Positions 21,219 to 60,593 of a stretch of DNA of 64,000 nucleotides are shown here, in pieces (within the stretch, counting starts at the first letter, position 1; the number at the start of each line of letters is the position of its first letter). The translations under genes were made by a program, and so were the position numbers. Below the pieces are notes generated by a model. That model saw nothing but the letters and a program-made list of their open reading frames with translations. It was not told where the DNA came from and made no database searches. Source of the stretch: an uncultured Lutibacter sp. Its GTDB lineage: Bacteria > Bacteroidota > Bacteroidia > Flavobacteriales > Flavobacteriaceae. The stretch is from positions 1 through 64,000 of the forward strand of contig NZ_CALAEQ010000099.1 of assembly GCF_937891065.1 (NCBI RefSeq), read 5' to 3'.

Positions 21219-21280
21219 AATTAATTAATTTTAAACACCTACTCTAATTAAAGGTTTTCAGTTTCCCCTTGTAAAAATCA

Positions 21281-22003: not shown

Positions 22004-22314
22004 TTCTTTTTTTTAATTTTCTACTCTTATGGATTTTCAAATTCCTCCCCGTTTATTAAAGTGGTTTCTGGACTCCACTATTATATATAACCCAACAGAA
22101 ATTATCAAAGAGATTTACTCTTTATGTTTTAACAAAAAAGAAAAGGAATTGTAGCAATTTTTTCATAGGGTTTCATAACAACTTTAAAACTAAGTAGTTT
22201 AAGTGTAAAATATGATGATAATTATCACACACTCAAATTTAGCCTGAATTAATAATTATACTTTACGGAAATCCGTAATGTTTTAATAAAATTTAGGAAG
22301 ATTTTAATAAAAAA

Positions 22315-48025: not shown

Positions 48026-48382
48026 TCATAACAGCTGATTATCAGCGTTATGAGATTTACAAATAAATTCAAAGTGATCAACTTTACAATTTTTAAGATA
48101 GCCTCTTTTTTTTAACTTAAAAATTAGCTTTTTTAAGTACACACATTTATTTTTATAATCTATTTTTACTTTACCCTTTTCAAGAATATCAGCCCCAATA
48201 ATTCCATCAACAGCTTTAGCTTTATACTCTATTAACGCAGTATTTATGTAGGTTAAATCCAACAATACTAAACTGAACTTTTCATAATTCCAATCTTTAA
48301 ATTTAAAAAGAATGCTATTTAATCTGATGTAGTAGTTATTTCGATTAAATTCAACGTTTTTTAAAAAGAAAATAGCCAGCAA
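48026..48382 (-). pseudogene. N-terminally truncated retropepsin-like aspartic protease fragment
   Basis: 'LVLLDLTYINTALIEYKAKAVDGIIGADILEKGKVKIDYKNKCVYLKK' matches the C-terminal half of flavobacterial clan AA proteases; no DTGA-type catalytic motif; overlaps the 3' end of the CHAT gene. Confidence 0.6.
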
Positions 48383-51026
48383 TTAAAAACAAACCAACAA
48401 TTAAAAACCACATAAAATTAAAGTTTTTATTTTGATGTGAACTAACTTCGCCAATGTATATAAAACTAGCCCAATAATATGGTGATTTTTTACTGACTGA
48501 AATAGATTCATTATTTAAATAAGATAATTTGGCCGTATGCAAAGCTTCAGATTTATTTCCTGTTTTCTTATAATTTTTATAAAATTCAGACATTAATTCC
48601 TCGGTAGATTTATCATTTACTTTCCATAAAGAAACTAGTAAATTTTTTACGCCGGCGTAAGAAAAACCACGAGCTAAACTCATTGCGCCTTCACCCTTTC
48701 TTAAAGTGCCTAAACCAGTTTCACAGGCACTTAAAACTAATAAATCTGTTTTGAAATTATACCCATAAATTTCAGGTAAATATAATGTTTCATTATAAAA
48801 TTCAATAGCAGGTGGTGTATAATAATTTCCTGAAGTTGCATGAGTTGATAAATGAATAATAGAATAATTTTTAGCTAGTTGATTAAATGCTTTTTTTGTT
48901 GCTTTTTGCTTTAATAAAAATGCTCCATCAATACTATTTTCAATACTATTTGCTTCTTGCAATGTGTAATTAAGTTCTGATAAATCACGATAATTTTTTT
49001 CGAAAACAGGGAAAAAGCCTATAAAATTTTCTTTTCCCTTTCCTACAACTTTAGAATCCTGTATTAAAATTGATGCTGAATAAGCATAACTTATATTGCT
49101 TTTTTTGAGTAAATATGGTAAATTTTCAAAGTTAGTGATTGCCGTTTTTTCAGTAATTAAAGCATCAAAAGGAAGAAATGAAAATAAACCGTCAGGAACT
49201 ATAATTGTGTTTTTACTTAGCTCTTTTGAGAATAAATTTTTATACAATTGAAATCCTAATGAAGTATATTTAGTAACATTATTTTGTAAATCACTTCCTC
49301 TACTATTAGCAAACAAATTTAAAAACTCTGAAATTTGAGTATTAAATTCATCTTCTTTTACAATCTTATCTAATTTAGGTGCTATTCCTTTTGAAATTGA
49401 AAAGACATAAACATTTTCTTTTCCATCAAAAAATTCAATTAATTGTTCGTTTTTTCTTAATAGTTTTTCTTCAATGGTTTTGAATGAAATTAAACTATCA
49501 TTTTTCACAGTTAAGGTTGGATATTTTGCATTAATTTCCTGTTTTAACAATTGCAACTCATTAAAAACAATTGCACGTTTATTTGTTAAATCTGCTAATA
49601 AATGTATCGATGCTTTTTCTCCTTTTAATTCTTCAATAGTAATCCTTTTATTAAGTTGTGATTTATTAAACAGCAACTGATTTTCAATCACAAATAAACT
49701 ATCATTTTTAATTTTAGACTTTTGAAAAGCAGTTTCTTTTGCTTCTAATAACACAACCGATTTGGATTGTTCAGCAAACTGAAATGCCTTTTCAATCCAA
49801 TTTATATTATTAGTTTGTTGATATAATTCGTAACACAAATCAATACAATTTTCACTTCTATTTCTATTTTCTTGTTGTTGAATTAATTTCGAATTCTGAC
49901 TTAAAAAAGAGGCTCTTAACTCATCTTCAACTTTAAAAGCTAATTCGAAATTTTTTAGTGCATTTTCAAAATCATTTTGTTGAATAAACAATAATGCTCT
50001 CCCGTCCAAAGCTTCTTTTAATGTGTTTTCAGGATAAAAATTAGTAGTCTCAGGATTTTCAAAAACTGATTTAGGATGGTACTTTGGAAGCAATACACTT
50101 AACGATTTCTGATAATAAATTAATCCATTTTCATATTGATTTATTTTACCATAAACTTCAGCAGTTTGATTGTAAATTTTAGCAACTTCTCTATCGTGTT
50201 CTCCAAATGCTTTTTGAGCATTTTTTAAAGCATTCTCAAATTGAACAATAGCGTTATCAAATTCTTGTATTTGAACAAGGCAATTTGCTAAAGTGACCTG
50301 GTTTTTAGTTAAAATTGAACTCTCATTATCAATATTAAATTTATTTGAAAGCTGTACGTTTTCTTTGGCTTTTTCAATATCATTTAAATACAAAAAATTG
50401 ATAGCCAAATCTGAATGAATTCTAGATTTTATTTCTTTTTCCTCATTTAAATTTAATGCTAAATTCAAATAATGTATCGCCTTTAAATATTCGCCTTTGG
50501 TTCTAAAAACAACTGCTAAATTTGAATAACCTGCAATTATTTGAGTGGTATTATTTTCTTTTTGAGCTTTTTCAATCGTAATTTTTAAAATATCTTCAGC
50601 TCTATCTATATCGCCCAAACGTGTGTAATTATTAGCTAGTGGTTTTAAACAAAATTCAATAATATCAAATTGAATATCTCCTTTTTTATAAAATGAAAAT
50701 GCGTTTTCATATTGAAATATAGACTGGTTTATAAACCCAAATTGCTTTAAATAAAAAGCGTAATTAATATGTAAATAAAGTTGTGCAGTTTTTTCTTTAT
50801 TATTTGTTGGAGTTCGCCATAAATTAGTTGAAATCTCTTCAAATAATTTTAAATTTTTAATAGATGGATTTTTCGCATACTCATCAAGTTGGGCATAAAT
50901 AAATTCAGAAAAATTATCTTGCTGTTTTAATGAATCTAACCTTACTTTAAGATGAGAGTCTGTTTTTTGTGCAACTGATATAACACTAAAAAATACTAAA
51001 AATAGAATGATAACATTTTTCAGCAT
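48351..51026 (-). CDS. Exported TPR-CHAT domain protein (caspase-like), C-terminal membrane anchor
   Basis: Signal peptide; TPRs; 'YSIIHLSTHATSGNYYTPPAI' (His) and 'DLLVLSACETGLGTLRKGEGAMSLARGFSYAGVKNLLVSLWKVND' (Cys); C-terminal TM 'FMWFLIVGLFLIAGYFLFKKR'. Confidence 0.93.
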   Translation of the reverse strand: MLKNVIILFLVFFSVISVAQKTDSHLKVRLDSLKQQDNFSEFIYAQLDEYAKNPSIKNLKLFEEISTNLWRTPTNNKEKTAQLYLHINYAFYLKQFGFINQSIFQYENAFSFYKKGDIQFDIIEFCLKPLANNYTRLGDIDRAEDILKITIEKAQKENNTTQIIAGYSNLAVVFRTKGEYLKAIHYLNLALNLNEEKEIKSRIHSDLAINFLYLNDIEKAKENVQLSNKFNIDNESSILTKNQVTLANCLVQIQEFDNAIVQFENALKNAQKAFGEHDREVAKIYNQTAEVYGKINQYENGLIYYQKSLSVLLPKYHPKSVFENPETTNFYPENTLKEALDGRALLFIQQNDFENALKNFELAFKVEDELRASFLSQNSKLIQQQENRNRSENCIDLCYELYQQTNNINWIEKAFQFAEQSKSVVLLEAKETAFQKSKIKNDSLFVIENQLLFNKSQLNKRITIEELKGEKASIHLLADLTNKRAIVFNELQLLKQEINAKYPTLTVKNDSLISFKTIEEKLLRKNEQLIEFFDGKENVYVFSISKGIAPKLDKIVKEDEFNTQISEFLNLFANSRGSDLQNNVTKYTSLGFQLYKNLFSKELSKNTIIVPDGLFSFLPFDALITEKTAITNFENLPYLLKKSNISYAYSASILIQDSKVVGKGKENFIGFFPVFEKNYRDLSELNYTLQEANSIENSIDGAFLLKQKATKKAFNQLAKNYSIIHLSTHATSGNYYTPPAIEFYNETLYLPEIYGYNFKTDLLVLSACETGLGTLRKGEGAMSLARGFSYAGVKNLLVSLWKVNDKSTEELMSEFYKNYKKTGNKSEALHTAKLSYLNNESISVSKKSPYYWASFIYIGEVSSHQNKNFNFMWFLIVGLFLIAGYFLFKKR

Positions 51027-51032
51027 TGCATC

Positions 51033-53027
51033 TTATATTTTCCAAATAGCATAAAAATGAAATTGAGAATGTGGTTCGTTAAAATTATAAAGATAACGCA
51101 CACCAACACTCGGCCCAATTCTAGATGCTCCAATAGTAATATCTCCAAAAACACCATATTTTATATCACTTAACGATGAATTACTTTCAGTTGTTACTGT
51201 TTCATTAAGTGCCTCAATTGGGTCTCCTATAGTTTCCTTTGAGTATACAAAATAACTAGAACTTGTTGTATTATTCACTTTATTTGAGATATCAAAAGAA
51301 AGTTGTGGACCAACTCCCAAACCTATAACTCCATTTAAATTATATCGAAATGACACCGGAACTACATCAATATTTAACTTTGTAATTTCCGAATTTGTTT
51401 CATCAAATCGTATGGCGCTGTCAATTATAACACCTTGATCTAATTCAATTGGTCCAAGTTGTTGACTAGCACTTTTAAAATCACCAAATTCATGTGTAGA
51501 AATCATCAATTCAGCTTGCAAATATTTTTTATATGATTTGTAAGGTGAAATGGTTGCTCCAACAAAATAACTTTTAGAATCTTTTACATCTAGATAACTA
51601 TTATACCCAGATTTTACTCCAATTGAAATACCTGGAGAAAATCGTGATGTAGAAGTATTTGTAATTATTGGTTCGTTTTTATCAAAAATAATAGCGGTTT
51701 TACTTTTAGACTTTACCTTGTGAAAATCTTTCCCAAATTTCATTGAATATTTTACAAACCCTTTAGTAGAATCTTTATCATGAACTCCTTTTTGAGCTGT
51801 TCCGGGTAAATAAATATTTTTAAACTGAAATGAAATTTGATCTTTTGTAATAATAGTATCTAAACAACTATAATTAATTTCTTCTTCCGGGCAAATTGGG
51901 CATTCAGGATACATGTCTAAAACTTCTAATGAAGATTTATCTAACATTTCAGGAATATCAACATTTAGTTTTATCAATCTAGCTGGTCCTTCTCCATCAT
52001 TTTGAAAGCGAACTTTATATTTTAAACGTTTAAAACGAACTAATCTATAATTTAATCTTGTATCGTAAACAGCCATTTTATTTGGGTCATGCGAGGTTAC
52101 AATTTCCATTTCTTTAGTTAGCACTTTATGAGAATCGTTACCACGTTCAGGCACGTAAATACTTCTAATTGAAATTACGGCGCTTGTATCTTTTAGCATT
52201 TCTGGGGTAGTTTTAAAGCTAAAAAACATATTTCGCTCTTCGTTGGCTTCTAAATTATCAATTGTATACATTTTCACATCATGATAATAGGCTTTCGCTT
52301 CCTCTAAGGTTAATGGTAAGTTTTGCTTTAATGTATCGGCTACAATTAACTGCTCGTCAATAAATGTAGAAACTCCTGTAGTTTTTATAAATTCATTTTT
52401 AGAAATATACCGGTTATTATCAGCTATAATTTCATTTGAAATTTCTTTTTCATTGTGATGTAATCTAACGTCAACAAGCTCGAAATTTTTAGCTTTGTAT
52501 TTCTTTTCATTGAAAAAAACATAAATTTCCCCATTCGTTGGAAACTCTTTTGTATTTCCATAACTCAATACCAATTGCATTTCTTCATTTGGTACTGGAT
52601 CTCTATTTGTTTGTATTCTAAAACCATTGTGAGCAGCCACTAAATAATGATTTTCGTTTTCAGAAACATCAAAGTTGGCTTCATGTATAGCAACTTCTTT
52701 AGGCCGTGTTGCTGGCGGTTTTCCATCATCATAATTATTAGTTACGGAAAGTTGAGTATTGTAATTTCCCTTCTTTTTATAAGTATGCTTTGGGTCTTTT
52801 TCAAAACTATAATTACCATCACCAAACTCCCAATAAAACGTGTAAAATGATTTTGGAGCTCCCGCAATTTGACTTAATTGGGGTGTTTCAGGATTAAATG
52901 AAATTTTATTCCCGTTTACAGTATATTCAATGGTAGCTGTTCTTGTAATTGTATCATTTTCTATGCTTTGCGCATAAAAAAAAGTTTGAAACAATATTAA
53001 AAACATTGTTAAAATGTGATTTTTCAT
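51033..53027 (-). CDS. PKD-domain protein with predicted C-terminal outer-membrane barrel (start corrected from 53060)
   Basis: 'FYTFYWEFGDGNYSFEKDPKHTYKKKGNYNTQLSVTN' PKD domain; C-terminal amphipathic strands; internal start MKNHILTMFLILFQTFFYAQ is a signal peptide. Confidence 0.75.
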   Translation of the reverse strand: MKNHILTMFLILFQTFFYAQSIENDTITRTATIEYTVNGNKISFNPETPQLSQIAGAPKSFYTFYWEFGDGNYSFEKDPKHTYKKKGNYNTQLSVTNNYDDGKPPATRPKEVAIHEANFDVSENENHYLVAAHNGFRIQTNRDPVPNEEMQLVLSYGNTKEFPTNGEIYVFFNEKKYKAKNFELVDVRLHHNEKEISNEIIADNNRYISKNEFIKTTGVSTFIDEQLIVADTLKQNLPLTLEEAKAYYHDVKMYTIDNLEANEERNMFFSFKTTPEMLKDTSAVISIRSIYVPERGNDSHKVLTKEMEIVTSHDPNKMAVYDTRLNYRLVRFKRLKYKVRFQNDGEGPARLIKLNVDIPEMLDKSSLEVLDMYPECPICPEEEINYSCLDTIITKDQISFQFKNIYLPGTAQKGVHDKDSTKGFVKYSMKFGKDFHKVKSKSKTAIIFDKNEPIITNTSTSRFSPGISIGVKSGYNSYLDVKDSKSYFVGATISPYKSYKKYLQAELMISTHEFGDFKSASQQLGPIELDQGVIIDSAIRFDETNSEITKLNIDVVPVSFRYNLNGVIGLGVGPQLSFDISNKVNNTTSSSYFVYSKETIGDPIEALNETVTTESNSSLSDIKYGVFGDITIGASRIGPSVGVRYLYNFNEPHSQFHFYAIWKI

Positions 53028-53127
53028 AATTAGTAGTTTAAACAAATATAAAAAAAGCATTCTATATTATATTTTTTGTTGCAAGAGATCGATCTAGTTT
53101 TTAATAAAAAATAAACAAAACCAAAAA

Positions 53128-53151
53128 AAAGCTGTCTTGTTAGACAGCTTT
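53128..53151 (-). terminator. Intrinsic terminator downstream of the lipoprotein gene
   Basis: AAAGCTGTCT TGTT AGACAGCTTT with + strand A-run. Confidence 0.75.
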
Positions 53152-53197
53152 CCCACTTGCAATTGACCTATTTCAACCGTTCAATAATTGCAATGTT

Positions 53198-54226
53198 TTA
53201 TGGTAAATCGTTAATTAATGTTTCTAAAGCAGCTTGGGTAATTGGACTTAAGCTTGATATCACTTCAATATGATCTTCAACAATTGTTGTTCCTTGTATT
53301 GCGTAATTTAATTGTCCATCTATTTCAGCAACCATTATAATATGTACTTCTAATCCTACAGGAATTAATCCGTAATGCTCAGTAAACATTTCTAAAGTTG
53401 TATTGTAAACATCCATTCTTGCTAAAGTTGATGCTTCACCATCATATGATAAATACACTGCACAATTGTCTTGGTTAAATTCAGCTGGTACATCAATAAA
53501 AATTTCAGTTTTTGCTCCGGCATAGTTATACCATTTGTCTAAGTTTGTCCATCCAAAATCTCCTATATCATAATTATATGTTGCAAATGCACCATCTGCA
53601 CCTTGTCCATCTCTAATTTGAGCATCATCTTTTTCTCCATTACCATCTTCATCAGCTTCAACCCAATCTCCATTTGTATCATCATCTCCTCTAAAAATTT
53701 GCATTCCACCTTCTAAATCAGCAAAATCAACTGGTCGACTTTGAACTCCTGCCATTTCTAACAATTCCATTTGCACATCACTTTGTAAAGCAGAAATATG
53801 AAACTCTCCTGCCGATTTTAGTGCTTCTTTATCTCCATTAGCTCTCATTCCTAACGTAGATTTATCTTTTAAAAGCATTGAAGCTTTATCGTAAATCTCA
53901 ATTAATTTAACTGTTACATTTCCTGTTACTGGAGTTCCATTTAATCCGAAAGAATTTGGTTGAAAAGTTACTTGTGTTCCTTGTGTTCCTATAATTACAC
54001 CACCTGCGGCAGCGTCTAAAATAAATTCTTGTGTAGCATCTGCTCTGTTATCTTCAAAACGAGCTGCTAAGGCTACACCATCTGGTTGAGGAACTAAAAC
54101 CTCATCTTTGTCATTAATACAACTTGCTAAACTTGCAAGTACCATTACTCCTAATACATTTTTTAAAATTCTGTTTACAACTTTACTATTCTTTAAGTTT
54201 GTAAAATTTTGTTTTTGCGTTTTCAT
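53198..54226 (-). CDS. Lipoprotein of unknown function
   Basis: Lipobox 'LASLASC'; acidic 'DDDTNGDWVEADEDGNGEKDD' segment. Confidence 0.7.
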   Translation of the reverse strand: MKTQKQNFTNLKNSKVVNRILKNVLGVMVLASLASCINDKDEVLVPQPDGVALAARFEDNRADATQEFILDAAAGGVIIGTQGTQVTFQPNSFGLNGTPVTGNVTVKLIEIYDKASMLLKDKSTLGMRANGDKEALKSAGEFHISALQSDVQMELLEMAGVQSRPVDFADLEGGMQIFRGDDDTNGDWVEADEDGNGEKDDAQIRDGQGADGAFATYNYDIGDFGWTNLDKWYNYAGAKTEIFIDVPAEFNQDNCAVYLSYDGEASTLARMDVYNTTLEMFTEHYGLIPVGLEVHIIMVAEIDGQLNYAIQGTTIVEDHIEVISSLSPITQAALETLINDLP

Positions 54227-54338
54227 AATTATTAAATTTTAATTGTTTATAAATTTGTTTTACACTTACATATCAACAGGTTTTATTTTTTGTTACCCTT
54301 TTTTATGAAAAAAAAATTAAATTAGCTATCTCTAACTA

Positions 54339-54926
54339 TTGCACATGATTCAAAAACCACACGAAGACCACATATATATAGAGGCTTTGTTAAAAAATGA
54401 CAGCAGAGTACTTTCTAAGATTTATGAAAAATTTTCACATAAGATTGTTTCATATGTAAGAAATAACAATGGAAATTCTGATGATGCCCAAGATATTATT
54501 CAGGAAACACTCGTTACAATTTACCACCAGGCAAAAGAGAAAAATTTTGTACTTACTTGTCCGTTTGATGCTTATTTCTATTTATTATGTAAAAGACGTT
54601 GGTTAAATGAACTTAAAAAAAGAGGAAATAAAAGGGTAACAATTTTAGACGATACTACATCTATTACTGAAGAGCAAGAACAACAAGTTGAAGAAACTGA
54701 AATTTTTGAAAAACAAAGTCAGCTTTTTGAATCAAAATTTAAAGAATTAGGTGCAAAATGTCAAGAATTATTAAAAACCACCTTTAAAATTAAATCGATG
54801 GAGAAAGTTGCCGAAATTTTAGGTGTTACTTATGGTTATGCTCGTAAGAAGAAATCGCAATGTATGGGTAAATTAACTCAGCTTGTGAAAAATTCGAATG
54901 AATTTCATCAACTAAAAGCCTACTAA
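54339..54926 (+). CDS. RNA polymerase sigma-70 family (ECF) factor
   Basis: 'SDDAQDIIQETLVTIYHQAK', 'DAYFYLLCKRRWLNELKKRG', sigma-4-like 'MEKVAEILGVTYGYARKKKSQCMGKL'. Confidence 0.88.
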   Translation: MHMIQKPHEDHIYIEALLKNDSRVLSKIYEKFSHKIVSYVRNNNGNSDDAQDIIQETLVTIYHQAKEKNFVLTCPFDAYFYLLCKRRWLNELKKRGNKRVTILDDTTSITEEQEQQVEETEIFEKQSQLFESKFKELGAKCQELLKTTFKIKSMEKVAEILGVTYGYARKKKSQCMGKLTQLVKNSNEFHQLKAY

Positions 54927-54927
54927 A

Positions 54928-55668
54928 ATGAGTGAAGATAACTACATAACGTTTGATAAGTATCTAAATAATGAATTATCGGATTTAGAGTTAACATCTT
55001 TTAAAGAACAACTAAAATCCGATATAGATTTTAAGCAAGAATTTGAAATTTATAAAGCGCTAGAAGCTTCATTAAGTTCAAAATTCGAAAATGAAGAAGA
55101 AGAAAAAGCTTTGAAAACTACACTTTCAAAATTAGGTTCAAAATACCTAAAACCTGAAAACACCATTAAAAAGAAAGGTAAATTAATTTCATTATTCAGC
55201 AATAAACAATTCATGGTTGCAGCAAGTATTGCACTGTTAATTGGTTTTTTCATATTTAATAATGGTGAACCTGTTTATAGCGATTTTTCGAGCCATAATT
55301 CATTAGAATTAGTTGTGAGAAGTGATAATAGCGAAACTATTATCAAAGCTCAGGAAGCGTTTAATTCTAAAAATTATGAAGTTGCTTTAGAACAATTAAC
55401 GGTTTTATCTGAAACAAATAAAAACGATGCTGAAATTGAATTGTATAAAGGAATTTGCTTTTTGGAGTTAAATAATTATGTGGAGGCCGATCAAATTTTT
55501 GATGCCATAAGCAGCGGAAAATCAACTTTTGTACATACTGCATCTTGGTATAAAGCTTTAAGTATGTTAAAACAAGAACAGTTTGAAGCTTGTAAATACG
55601 TTTTACAAACAATTCCTGAAAGTGCTGATGAATATAAACAAGCAAAAAAGTTATTAAAAAAGTTATAG
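54928..55668 (+). CDS. Single-TM anti-sigma-like protein with C-terminal TPR region
   Basis: 1 bp after the sigma factor; 'FMVAASIALLIGFFIFNNG' TM; 'AQEAFNSKNYEVALEQLTVLSE' TPR. Confidence 0.75.
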   Translation: MSEDNYITFDKYLNNELSDLELTSFKEQLKSDIDFKQEFEIYKALEASLSSKFENEEEEKALKTTLSKLGSKYLKPENTIKKKGKLISLFSNKQFMVAASIALLIGFFIFNNGEPVYSDFSSHNSLELVVRSDNSETIIKAQEAFNSKNYEVALEQLTVLSETNKNDAEIELYKGICFLELNNYVEADQIFDAISSGKSTFVHTASWYKALSMLKQEQFEACKYVLQTIPESADEYKQAKKLLKKL

Positions 55669-57588: not shown

Positions 57589-58191
57589 TTATTTTTTTGC
57601 ATATAACATCGGATTTGTATCCTCGTCATTATACATTTTCATTTGTTTATATACTTTTACAAACTTCTCTCCTGAAGCAAAATCGCTTAATAAATCATCT
57701 ATTGCAGTAGATAAATCAACACGTTGTTCTAAAAGTACATTTAGTTTTGTTTGGCATTTTGCTCTATGATCTTCTGATGCAGATTTACGAGTTGCCTCTT
57801 CATTCATATGATAAATTTTTAAGGCTAAAATTGACAATCTATCTATTGCCCAAGCTGGTGTTTCAGAATTAATTTTAGCACCTTCTTTTACCTTAACATC
57901 TTTAAATTTATTTAAGAAATAACTATCAATAAATTCAACCATATCAGTTCTATCCTGATTTGAAGCGTCAATTTTACGCTTTAAAACAATTGCTTCAACA
58001 GGGTCTATATTTGGCAAACGAATAATATCTTCATAATGCCATTGTACCGTATCTATCCAGTTTTTTCTGTACAATAAATGCTCGAAAGTATTTTTATCAA
58101 ACGGATTTTCAAATGGTTGATCAACATCATCTATAATGTGATATTTTGCGATTACTTCATCAAATAATTGATTGTATTGTTTTGCGTTCAT
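57589..58191 (-). CDS. DUF4254 domain protein
   Basis: 'FEHLLYRKNWIDTVQWHYEDIIRLPNIDP' is typical of the family. Confidence 0.8.
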   Translation of the reverse strand: MNAKQYNQLFDEVIAKYHIIDDVDQPFENPFDKNTFEHLLYRKNWIDTVQWHYEDIIRLPNIDPVEAIVLKRKIDASNQDRTDMVEFIDSYFLNKFKDVKVKEGAKINSETPAWAIDRLSILALKIYHMNEEATRKSASEDHRAKCQTKLNVLLEQRVDLSTAIDDLLSDFASGEKFVKVYKQMKMYNDEDTNPMLYAKK

Positions 58192-59189
58192 AAGTGTTTT
58201 TCTAATATATGTAAATATTCAACTGTTTCAGTTGCTTTGTGATTTCTGTTTTCTGTTTTATCAGCTTTAAATCGTTGATAATTTGTGGTTTTTAAGCTGT
58301 ATTTTCCGTACTTTAATAATATTGTACTTACTTCATTTTCAGACATTAAACCCTCATTATTGTAACTCAAAAAAATATGCTTAAAGTTAGCGTTTTTTAT
58401 TAGTTCTTCAAAAGATATTTTTACTTCATTTTTTTTACAATAGGAAGACTTATAATAATCTCGTAATCCTGTTTTTCCCTTCGGAAGAAATGTGTCGTAT
58501 TTAGCAATTGTATTTAATAAATGATAATTTGAACCATATTGCCGAGCATTATATGGTGGATCTAAATACAAAATATCTCCTTTAATTTTTTTTATGAGAT
58601 CGTTGCTATCTTCATTAAAAATTTGGTGTGAACTCTCTGTTTTTAAAAATTTTGCAGGAACAATTAATAATGTTTTTTGAGCTGTTTTTTTTAATTGCTT
58701 TAAATATGCTCCATAAACCGAAGCTGTGTTCGCTACTTTATCAGCACTTTCAATTAATGACGCCAATAAAAAGTAATATTCATCAGCTGTTATTTCGATA
58801 CTTGTTTTCCACTTCTCAATTTGCATCCGAATAGCATCAATTTTTTTTCCGTTTTCTGATGAAAAATATAATCTCTCTTCATTTCCACCTTCACAATAAT
58901 TCTGAAAAATAAAACCTTCTATTCCTACTAAATTATTTAAACATTCAATTTGTTTTTCACAATTTATTGATGTGTGATTTCCAATATAATTTCTATTTAG
59001 TACATAACTATATCGTTCAACATCATTAGCAATAACTTGTTTAACTAACGGCTTAAATGTTCTACCAACAATTCCAGTACCTGCAAACAAATCACAAAAC
59101 ACAAGGCTTGATAAATCTGAATTCACCGTATTAATTATTGATGATTTTAAAAAGGAAGATAACTTATGTTTAGAACCTATATAATTCAA
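58188..59189 (-). CDS. D12-class N6-adenine DNA methyltransferase
   Basis: 'MNYIGSKHKL', 'FCDLFAGTGIVGRTFK', 'DILYLDPPYNARQYGSNYHLLNT'. Confidence 0.9.
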   Translation of the reverse strand: MNYIGSKHKLSSFLKSSIINTVNSDLSSLVFCDLFAGTGIVGRTFKPLVKQVIANDVERYSYVLNRNYIGNHTSINCEKQIECLNNLVGIEGFIFQNYCEGGNEERLYFSSENGKKIDAIRMQIEKWKTSIEITADEYYFLLASLIESADKVANTASVYGAYLKQLKKTAQKTLLIVPAKFLKTESSHQIFNEDSNDLIKKIKGDILYLDPPYNARQYGSNYHLLNTIAKYDTFLPKGKTGLRDYYKSSYCKKNEVKISFEELIKNANFKHIFLSYNNEGLMSENEVSTILLKYGKYSLKTTNYQRFKADKTENRNHKATETVEYLHILEKHL

Positions 59190-59226
59190 AGTTTTTATTT
59201 ACGGTTTACAAATTTCTGTATCAAAA

Positions 59227-59862
59227 TTACTTTATTGCCCAAATAATATCGGCTTTTACAATTTCATTTTTAAAATAAAAACTGTGTAATTTTGAAGTTT
59301 CAAATTTAAGTAAATATGTTGATACTATTTTTTTTAACCAACTAATTTCAGCTTTTAATTTCCAATGCTCATTTTCATTTTCATAATTTACCAACACAAT
59401 AAAAAGTCGATTTTTAAAATGTTTTCGTTGTTGCTGACTTTGGTTTTTATACAACCATTCTATTATTTCATTTTTATGTGCAATTGCGTATGGAACAGAT
59501 TTTTTAAATCCTTTTGGAAAAACGGTAGTTTTATGATCAAACGGGGTTTCGTTAATAAAAAAATCTGTGAATTTATTGTATGAATCGTGATGCGGATTCA
59601 CCATCTCATGTTTACAAAAAAAACTTTCTACTGCTTTTGCTGACCAAAAATTAAACCACCTATTTAATGTGTAATTTTTTAAATCGTTGTATTGAAAATT
59701 GTTTTTGAATTTGGTTTCAATTTCTGACAAAAGCGAATCAAATGAGCTTATTTTATATATAAAATTAGTCTGAATATCAAACTCATCTACTTGCTTTCGT
59801 CCCCAGGAATATTCAAATTTTAATCTCTTTTTTAACTCTTTTTCAATTGTAACATCAACCAT
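59227..59862 (-). CDS. Putative PD-(D/E)XK-type restriction endonuclease, cognate of the adjacent methyltransferase
   Basis: 'FTDFFINETPFDHKTTVFPKGF' resembles a D-Xn-DXK nuclease core; adjacent to a DNA MTase on the same strand. Confidence 0.5.
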   Translation of the reverse strand: MVDVTIEKELKKRLKFEYSWGRKQVDEFDIQTNFIYKISSFDSLLSEIETKFKNNFQYNDLKNYTLNRWFNFWSAKAVESFFCKHEMVNPHHDSYNKFTDFFINETPFDHKTTVFPKGFKKSVPYAIAHKNEIIEWLYKNQSQQQRKHFKNRLFIVLVNYENENEHWKLKAEISWLKKIVSTYLLKFETSKLHSFYFKNEIVKADIIWAIK

Positions 59863-59867
59863 TTTAA

Positions 59868-60593
59868 TTATAAAAATTTACGCTCAATCAAATTAATTAA
59901 ACGTTCTTCATAATCTTGTTTAGCACTCCAATCGTAATCAGGTTTTACCATTTTTTTTATAAAATCCTTTGCTTCCTCTTCATTTTTAAATGAGTTTAAC
60001 TGCGATAATACACGATTAAAATCTTCTTGATTATTTTCAAATAAATGCTTTACAAATGCAATCCTATCATTTAACCCCACTTGTATGTTATTTTTAAATA
60101 ATGTATCATTTAAAGAACGTTGTGTATTTTCAGGTACTTCTTCAATCTTAGGATTTTCTTTAGTAACTCTTTCAAACATTTCAGTAGCAACATCTGCAGA
60201 AATAGCATCTTTAAGTTCTTCTTCTAATGAGTTTAGAACTGAAAAAACTTCTTTTTCATCATCTTTTAATATGCTGTTTTCAATATCAAGCACCCCTTCA
60301 ATTTGTTCGTCTAATAACATTTCAAGCTTTTCAACATCTTCTATAACTTCAATTAAATTAGAAGACACTTCCTTTTCTTCTTCAAAAGAAGGTTCTATTT
60401 TATCAACAATTTTATTGGTGATTTCTAATGAATTAGATTCACTATTTATATACGCATCAACAAACTTCAACACCGACAATTTTTCATAAATTCCTTGTGC
60501 TTTTTCATGAAGTGCACTAATATCATCACTATTTTCCAATTGTAAAATACTGTGTGCCAGACTTACTAATTCGGCTTTTATTTTTTTGTGCAT
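59868..60593 (-). CDS. Acidic coiled-coil hypothetical protein
   Basis: Continuous 241-aa ORF with low-complexity acidic helices; C-terminal 'KPDYDWSAKQDYEERLINLIERKFL'. Confidence 0.7.
   Translation of the reverse strand: MHKKIKAELVSLAHSILQLENSDDISALHEKAQGIYEKLSVLKFVDAYINSESNSLEITNKIVDKIEPSFEEEKEVSSNLIEVIEDVEKLEMLLDEQIEGVLDIENSILKDDEKEVFSVLNSLEEELKDAISADVATEMFERVTKENPKIEEVPENTQRSLNDTLFKNNIQVGLNDRIAFVKHLFENNQEDFNRVLSQLNSFKNEEEAKDFIKKMVKPDYDWSAKQDYEERLINLIERKFL

Follow-up and report, generated by a model that had tools for sequence, protein, structure and literature searches.

A stretch of 64,000 nucleotides from an uncultured Lutibacter species (contig NZ_CALAEQ010000099.1, positions 1 to 64,000, hereafter the window) carries five neighbouring genes that form a conserved module, and on balance this module is probably an envelope signalling device in which a caspase-fold protease triggers the release of a sigma factor from its membrane-bound inhibitor. 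The genes encode an exported TPR-CHAT cysteine protease with a C-terminal transmembrane (TM) anchor (CHAT, 48351..51026, minus strand), a PKD-DUF7619-DUF7849 protein that is a probable outer-membrane barrel and possible sensor (PKD, 51033..53060, minus strand), a lipoprotein of a new family (LP, 53198..54226, minus strand) and, divergently, an extracytoplasmic function (ECF) sigma factor (SIG, 54345..54926, plus strand, with ATG 54345 as the better start) followed by its TM-TPR partner and proposed anti-sigma factor (ANTI, 54928..55668, plus strand). An earlier note on this DNA had described such a cluster, and all five genes are present where it placed them, with the same gaps of 6 bp between PKD and CHAT and 1 bp between SIG and ANTI.

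In the proposed mechanism, ANTI would span the inner membrane once, with a helical domain on the cytoplasmic side and TPRs on the periplasmic side, and keep SIG inactive until a signal, for which the PKD outer-membrane protein is a possible sensor, switches on CHAT, which would be anchored in the inner membrane and face the periplasm. CHAT would then cut ANTI in the linker between its TM and TPR segments, most likely after Arg131, with Glu691 of the protease forming an Arg-binding pocket; intramembrane proteolysis would come next and free SIG, which would transcribe LP and a few genes for exported proteins and lipoproteins from promoters of the type GGGTAACAA-N13-TTGATATAA.

That the five genes belong together beyond chance follows from their order and their all-or-none inheritance. 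The PKD protein has at least 433 relatives among GTDB genomes, and the five-gene set is complete in 64 of the 80 best Flavobacteriaceae loci, which include Flavobacterium, Aquimarina, Hyunsoonleella, Bizionia, Olleya, Tenacibaculum and others; the incomplete loci are mostly broken by contig ends or come from Lutibacter genomes in which the module is unlinked. Among 36 other Lutibacter genomes, CHAT, DUF7849, LP and ANTI occur in the identical 19, PKD adjoining CHAT in each of these, and none occurs in the remaining 17, one of which (G028) retains a broken CHAT stub only. With the source genome counted, 20 Lutibacter genomes have the module and 17 do not, a distribution whose p value of 6e-11 is descriptive only, as related genomes are not independent. 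In 10 Lutibacter genomes LP-SIG-ANTI lies far from PKD-CHAT, both halves being retained, and G052, a member of another family of the same order, has all five genes in unchanged order at 34-57% identity, its copy of SIG being 57% identical. The conserved neighbourhood that the earlier note had named as a check is borne out; the carriers are marine bacteria and beyond Lutibacter probably number hundreds of related species, and the module was undescribed in the literature searched, most subscription papers lying outside that search. At the unlinked Lutibacter loci (L059-L069), PKD-CHAT stands directly 3' of a very large SprA-like gene, gcvH, and vanZ-like and tonB-like genes, and at L061, L063, L067 and L069 a second trio adjoins the CHAT locus, encoding a sigma factor (187 amino acids), a TM protein (about 250 amino acids) and a protein of 354-371 amino acids.

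CHAT is a protein of 891 amino acids with a hydrophobic, signal-like N-terminus, TPRs (TPR_12, E=1e-18), a CHAT domain (PF12770, E=2.6e-47; 162 bits against a curated cut-off of 24) and a C-terminal TM segment at 872-888 that is present in 72 of 72 homologues, in agreement with the earlier suggestion of an exported CHAT protein. His729 and Cys768, the catalytic pair, are invariant in the CHAT alignment and the catalytic His/Cys is retained in all 72 complete homologues, three of them with variant motifs; from this retention, on which the earlier note had also made its proposal depend, CHAT is predicted to be an active enzyme. SIG matches the ECF sigma-70 model TIGR02937 over residues 25-181 (63 bits; cut-off, 42.9). 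ANTI has the layout of a membrane anti-sigma factor, with its gene directly after that of the sigma factor, one TM segment and a helical N-terminus; its AlphaFold2 model (mean confidence score, pLDDT, 81.6) has a four-helix N-terminus, a TM segment at about 95-111 and a TPR C-terminus, a single TM segment is found in 68 of 68 homologues, and ANTI would be a single-pass anti-sigma factor for SIG with its N-terminus in the cytoplasm and its TPRs in the periplasm. Window positions 48026-48382 (minus strand) hold the remnant of a 150-amino-acid retropepsin-like aspartyl protease, which matches residues 88-142 only and has lost the DTGAS motif. Most Lutibacter and some Flavobacterium carry an intact version 3' of CHAT; as a fixed partner of CHAT it was rejected, being absent or decayed in several genomes, the source genome included.

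The output of the circuit is indicated by a promoter motif. The SIG-LP intergenic regions share the bipartite sequence GGGTAACAA-N13-TTGATATAA, facing LP and with nearly fixed spacing, and in the window the corresponding site, GGGTAACAA-N13-TTGATAT (54270..54300, minus strand), is an exact match that would drive LP (position weight matrix from 63 loci). When 3.1 Mb were scanned with a looser pattern, 106 of the 109 matches fell within the module on the LP strand. In a comparison of 101 genomes, almost every one from a separate genus of the family, a strict version of the motif was found in 14 of the 16 with SIG versus 3 of the 85 without (p=1.5e-12). Among these three sites in genomes lacking SIG, one lies 5' of an LP homologue and another 5' of a lipoprotein whose family recurs among the targets; both of these genomes are incomplete. 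Within Lutibacter, sites occur in 19 of 20 genomes with SIG versus 3 of 17 without; in reverse, the pattern matched 3 times in 60 genomes. The motif is an ECF-type promoter that tracks the presence of SIG, and from this we infer that SIG binds the LP promoter. Sites outside the module lie mostly 5' of genes for exported proteins, namely small basic repeat proteins, a Cys-rich lipoprotein of 118 amino acids, other lipoproteins and large surface proteins. Small, exported, basic and fast-changing proteins stand behind a SIG-type promoter at L249, L250, L251, L254, L262 and L263, several of them with RKRPG-type repeats, and a small exported protein at L252 carries DHNASRSNTTSSKAQ repeats; these small basic repeat proteins are possibly substrates or surface peptides. 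Autoregulation of SIG through its own motif was rejected, as the motif always faces LP and SIG-ANTI has a housekeeping-like -7 element, TAAATTAG (54318..54325, plus strand), that differs from the SIG-type motif. An element of the form TAnnTTnG lies about 18 bp 5' of SIG in most loci, and it occurs at a spacing of 15-30 from a divergent -35 element in 29 loci versus 2.6 in shuffles.

The SIG-type motif is missing 5' of PKD in 71 of 79 loci and in all unlinked Lutibacter, and LP is followed by an intrinsic terminator (53124..53154, minus strand; a hairpin of -15.4 kcal/mol and a T-run) that separates it from PKD-CHAT and has a comparable counterpart in 60 of 76 LP-PKD gaps. Because the promoter stands at LP and not at PKD, and because a terminator follows LP, LP is taken to be an output, and in most loci PKD and CHAT form a unit of their own.

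The link between protease and sigma pair extends beyond the family. Outside the Flavobacteriaceae, exported TPR-CHAT proteins with a C-terminal TM segment adjoin an ECF sigma factor and TM-TPR pair in the absence of LP and PKD; a sigma/TM pair lies within 3-4 kb of 16 of 30 such tailed CHATs in a first sample and of 20 of 38 in a second (36 of 68 together), compared with none of nine untailed CHATs. For three CHATs of the first sample, visual inspection corrected the tail assignment, and one untailed locus (L354) flagged by the script was left uncounted, as its partner is not TPR-like. CHAT, SIG and ANTI are linked across the Bacteroidota.

The most specific pointer to a substrate comes from two residues. 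Arg131 of ANTI (codon at 55318..55320, plus strand), the proposed cleavage (P1) residue, lies in the periplasmic linker, in a coil between the TM and TPR segments of the AlphaFold2 model; it is invariant in 53 of 53 ANTI proteins from the Flavobacteriaceae and their relatives, and of 22 distant partners, 15 have an Arg in the same column and one more has it displaced by a residue. Glu691 was picked out by scanning CHAT for acidic columns. In a first set, all 28 CHATs with an Arg partner have it and all six without such a partner lack it, and on the CHAT tree the group without Arg amounts to four changes, at least three of which are forced by well supported branches. In a second set of 40 loci, drawn later, Glu691 is found in 15 of 15 CHATs with an Arg partner, is lost in two of four with non-basic partners (both Met partners) and is kept by the CHAT whose partner has Lys (L337). 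The rule that an Arg partner implies Glu holds in 43 of 43 cases; its converse has exceptions. Since Arg131 is invariant in the family, and Glu691 accompanies every Arg partner and was lost along with Arg in several lineages, CHAT would cut ANTI after Arg131, and Glu691 is proposed as the S1 pocket residue for Arg. Taken with the layout of promoter and terminator, this pattern favours a protease that acts on ANTI, upstream of SIG, a possibility that appeared in the earlier note merely as a check to be made. A linker of the type GLxVxM[S] occurs in TM-TPR partners of CHATs without Glu691 (L304, L314, L347 and L353), and in these Met may be the cut residue.

The module works most like the Craspase-sigma circuit and the RseA/DegS pathway and is a member of neither, as it has no CRISPR effector alongside, its protease is extracytoplasmic, and neither an RseA nor a FecR domain was found. 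In the accessory circuit of Craspase, the cut of Csx30 by the TPR-CHAT protease Csx29 is reported to relieve inhibition of the ECF sigma factor CASP-sigma (PMC10028731), so that in both systems the gene for a TPR-CHAT protein is associated with those for an ECF sigma factor and for a known or proposed inhibitor of that factor, with sigma sites in the locus (PMC10028731, PMC11106740). The CHAT domain is homologous to that of Csx29 (CHAT-domain profile against Csx29 chains, E=3e-9), a relationship visible only with the domain profile and masked by TPR matches when whole-length CHAT is compared. However, the Craspase protease is cytoplasmic whereas the protease and proposed cut region of the module are extracytoplasmic, the inhibitor is Csx30 rather than a TM-TPR protein, and Cas7-11 is not among the listed neighbour genes, no genome-wide search for it having been made. 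A conserved Arg is predicted as the cut site in the module, in contrast to the non-conserved sites reported for Craspase (L|D, M|K, A|S), none of which contains Arg (PMC11106740), and Csx29 has a gap at the Glu691 position in the profile alignment. With RseA/DegS/RseP the module would share a single-pass anti-sigma factor that is cut periplasmically and then released to the cytoplasm, but there the first protease is of the PDZ serine type and not a caspase-fold cysteine enzyme, and ANTI, unlike RseA, has TPRs and no match to the RseA domain. A review notes that ECF54 sigma factors likewise have CHAT genes nearby, or subtilase or carboxypeptidase genes, and describes them as lacking an anti-sigma factor (PMC8999054), whereas SIG has a TM partner. 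The FecI/FecR systems of the Bacteroidota also pair an ECF sigma factor with a membrane protein and have a component in the outer membrane; neither a FecR domain nor a TonB-dependent receptor, however, was found among the five module proteins.

Several observations weigh against a cut of ANTI by CHAT as the trigger. Pfam recognised no anti-sigma domain in the N-terminal part of ANTI, where only sub-threshold matches were obtained (zf-HC2, 0.045; DUF3379, 0.026), and a PDB fold search recovered the TPRs and no anti-sigma fold; the anti-sigma role that the earlier note suggested for ANTI is putative, proposed from adjacency, the one TM segment and the helical N-terminus. About half of the tailed CHATs are without an adjacent pair. 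Two triads with Ser partners and no Arg (L336 and L346) keep Glu691, one of the six partners without Arg in the first set (L311) has an Arg three residues on, and Glu691 is common in CHATs without an adjacent pair (7 of 7 untailed, 13 of 14 others). The role of Glu691 may therefore be wider than pairing with Arg131, and Arg131 could be structural. Finally, the SIG-type motif does occur 5' of PKD in 8 of 79 loci, for example in Hyunsoonleella and Mariniflexile, and in such species feedback on CHAT is possible.

This last observation suits the direction proposed by the earlier note, in which SIG, released by another signal, induces CHAT, the latter being an effector that processes or degrades envelope proteins. 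CHAT shares the cluster, and read-through from LP is conceivable in the 16 of 76 loci in which no terminator was found. Nevertheless, most loci lack a promoter at PKD and have a terminator after LP, the distant triads keep CHAT with SIG-ANTI where LP and PKD are absent, and the Arg131/Glu691 pattern counts against it as well, so that this direction seems unlikely. What stands of the earlier proposal is a sigma/anti-sigma-like envelope circuit tied to an extracytoplasmic CHAT; what does not is a circuit controlling the protease. The reverse is likely, with CHAT, perhaps together with PKD, controlling SIG, and LP as the output. A similarly low probability is given to the idea that CHAT and ANTI cooperate without a cut in ANTI, CHAT processing some other exported substrate, such as the small basic repeat proteins, while the TPRs of ANTI act as a sensor by binding CHAT or the product. 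The RKRPG repeats of small exported promoter targets, the TPRs on both CHAT and ANTI and the two triads that retain Glu691 without Arg in ANTI would suit it; however, the small proteins are restricted to particular lineages, whereas Arg131 is conserved from family to family, and Arg and Glu were lost jointly in at least three lineages.

TPR-CHAT proteins are typical of conflict systems, and with the match to Csx29 this might suggest a defence or programmed-death module in which CHAT, like the protease of Craspase or of TPR-CHAT conflict systems, is a cell-killing or antiviral protease. We consider this very improbable, given an exported location, a gene cluster conserved over a family, and promoter targets that are exported proteins and not nucleases or toxins; none of the five proteins matches a PADLOC model at E<=0.01. 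Just as little credence attaches to the view that the two divergent operons are mere neighbours with separate functions, clustered through shared ancestry only. The halves do lie apart in the 10 Lutibacter genomes, PKD-CHAT then following the sprA-gcvH-vanZ-tonB-like genes, but they are always co-inherited even there, and the arrangement of CHAT beside SIG-ANTI reappears, unaccompanied by the other genes, in distant Bacteroidota.

If CHAT does initiate the release of SIG, a caspase-fold protease heads an envelope sigma cascade, a natural context is provided from which the Craspase-sigma circuit could derive, and many genes labelled only as TPR, PKD, DUF7849 or hypothetical lipoprotein acquire a role. 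We are evenly divided on the broader proposition that there is a widespread class of envelope signalling systems in which an exported, membrane-anchored TPR-CHAT protease of caspase fold makes the first cut in a TM-TPR anti-sigma factor, at a conserved Arg whose evolution is coupled to that of an acidic residue in the protease, the Craspase sigma circuit being a cytoplasmic, CRISPR-recruited relative. Few of the common bacterial CHAT proteins have a known substrate, and the module offers a precise, testable candidate for an enzyme and its substrate (CHAT and Arg131 of ANTI), along with a defined promoter and a short list of targets in Flavobacterium, which is easy to grow.

The PKD protein contains PKD, DUF7619 and DUF7849 domains (the last with E=6e-60), and 69 of 80 homologues end in the terminal Phe expected of an outer-membrane barrel, the window protein ending in Ile; it is a probable barrel on these sequence features and possibly the signal sensor. 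LP, the constant target of the module promoter, has an invariant lipobox Cys36 and belongs to no Pfam family, and a known fold was sought for it without success, its AlphaFold2 model being good (pLDDT 86) and finding no confident PDB match. In Aquimarina (L164, L182 and L205), the space between LP and PKD holds the gene for a beta-lactamase-like lipoprotein of about 406 amino acids, which has a SIG-type promoter of its own. Elsewhere in the window, Rfam DUF805 and DUF805b RNA motifs lie at 22014-22083 and 21236-21271, both on the minus strand, and positions 57589-60593 (minus strand) hold an adenine-methylase-like gene (58188-59189, with a DPPY motif) and three neighbours without assigned function.

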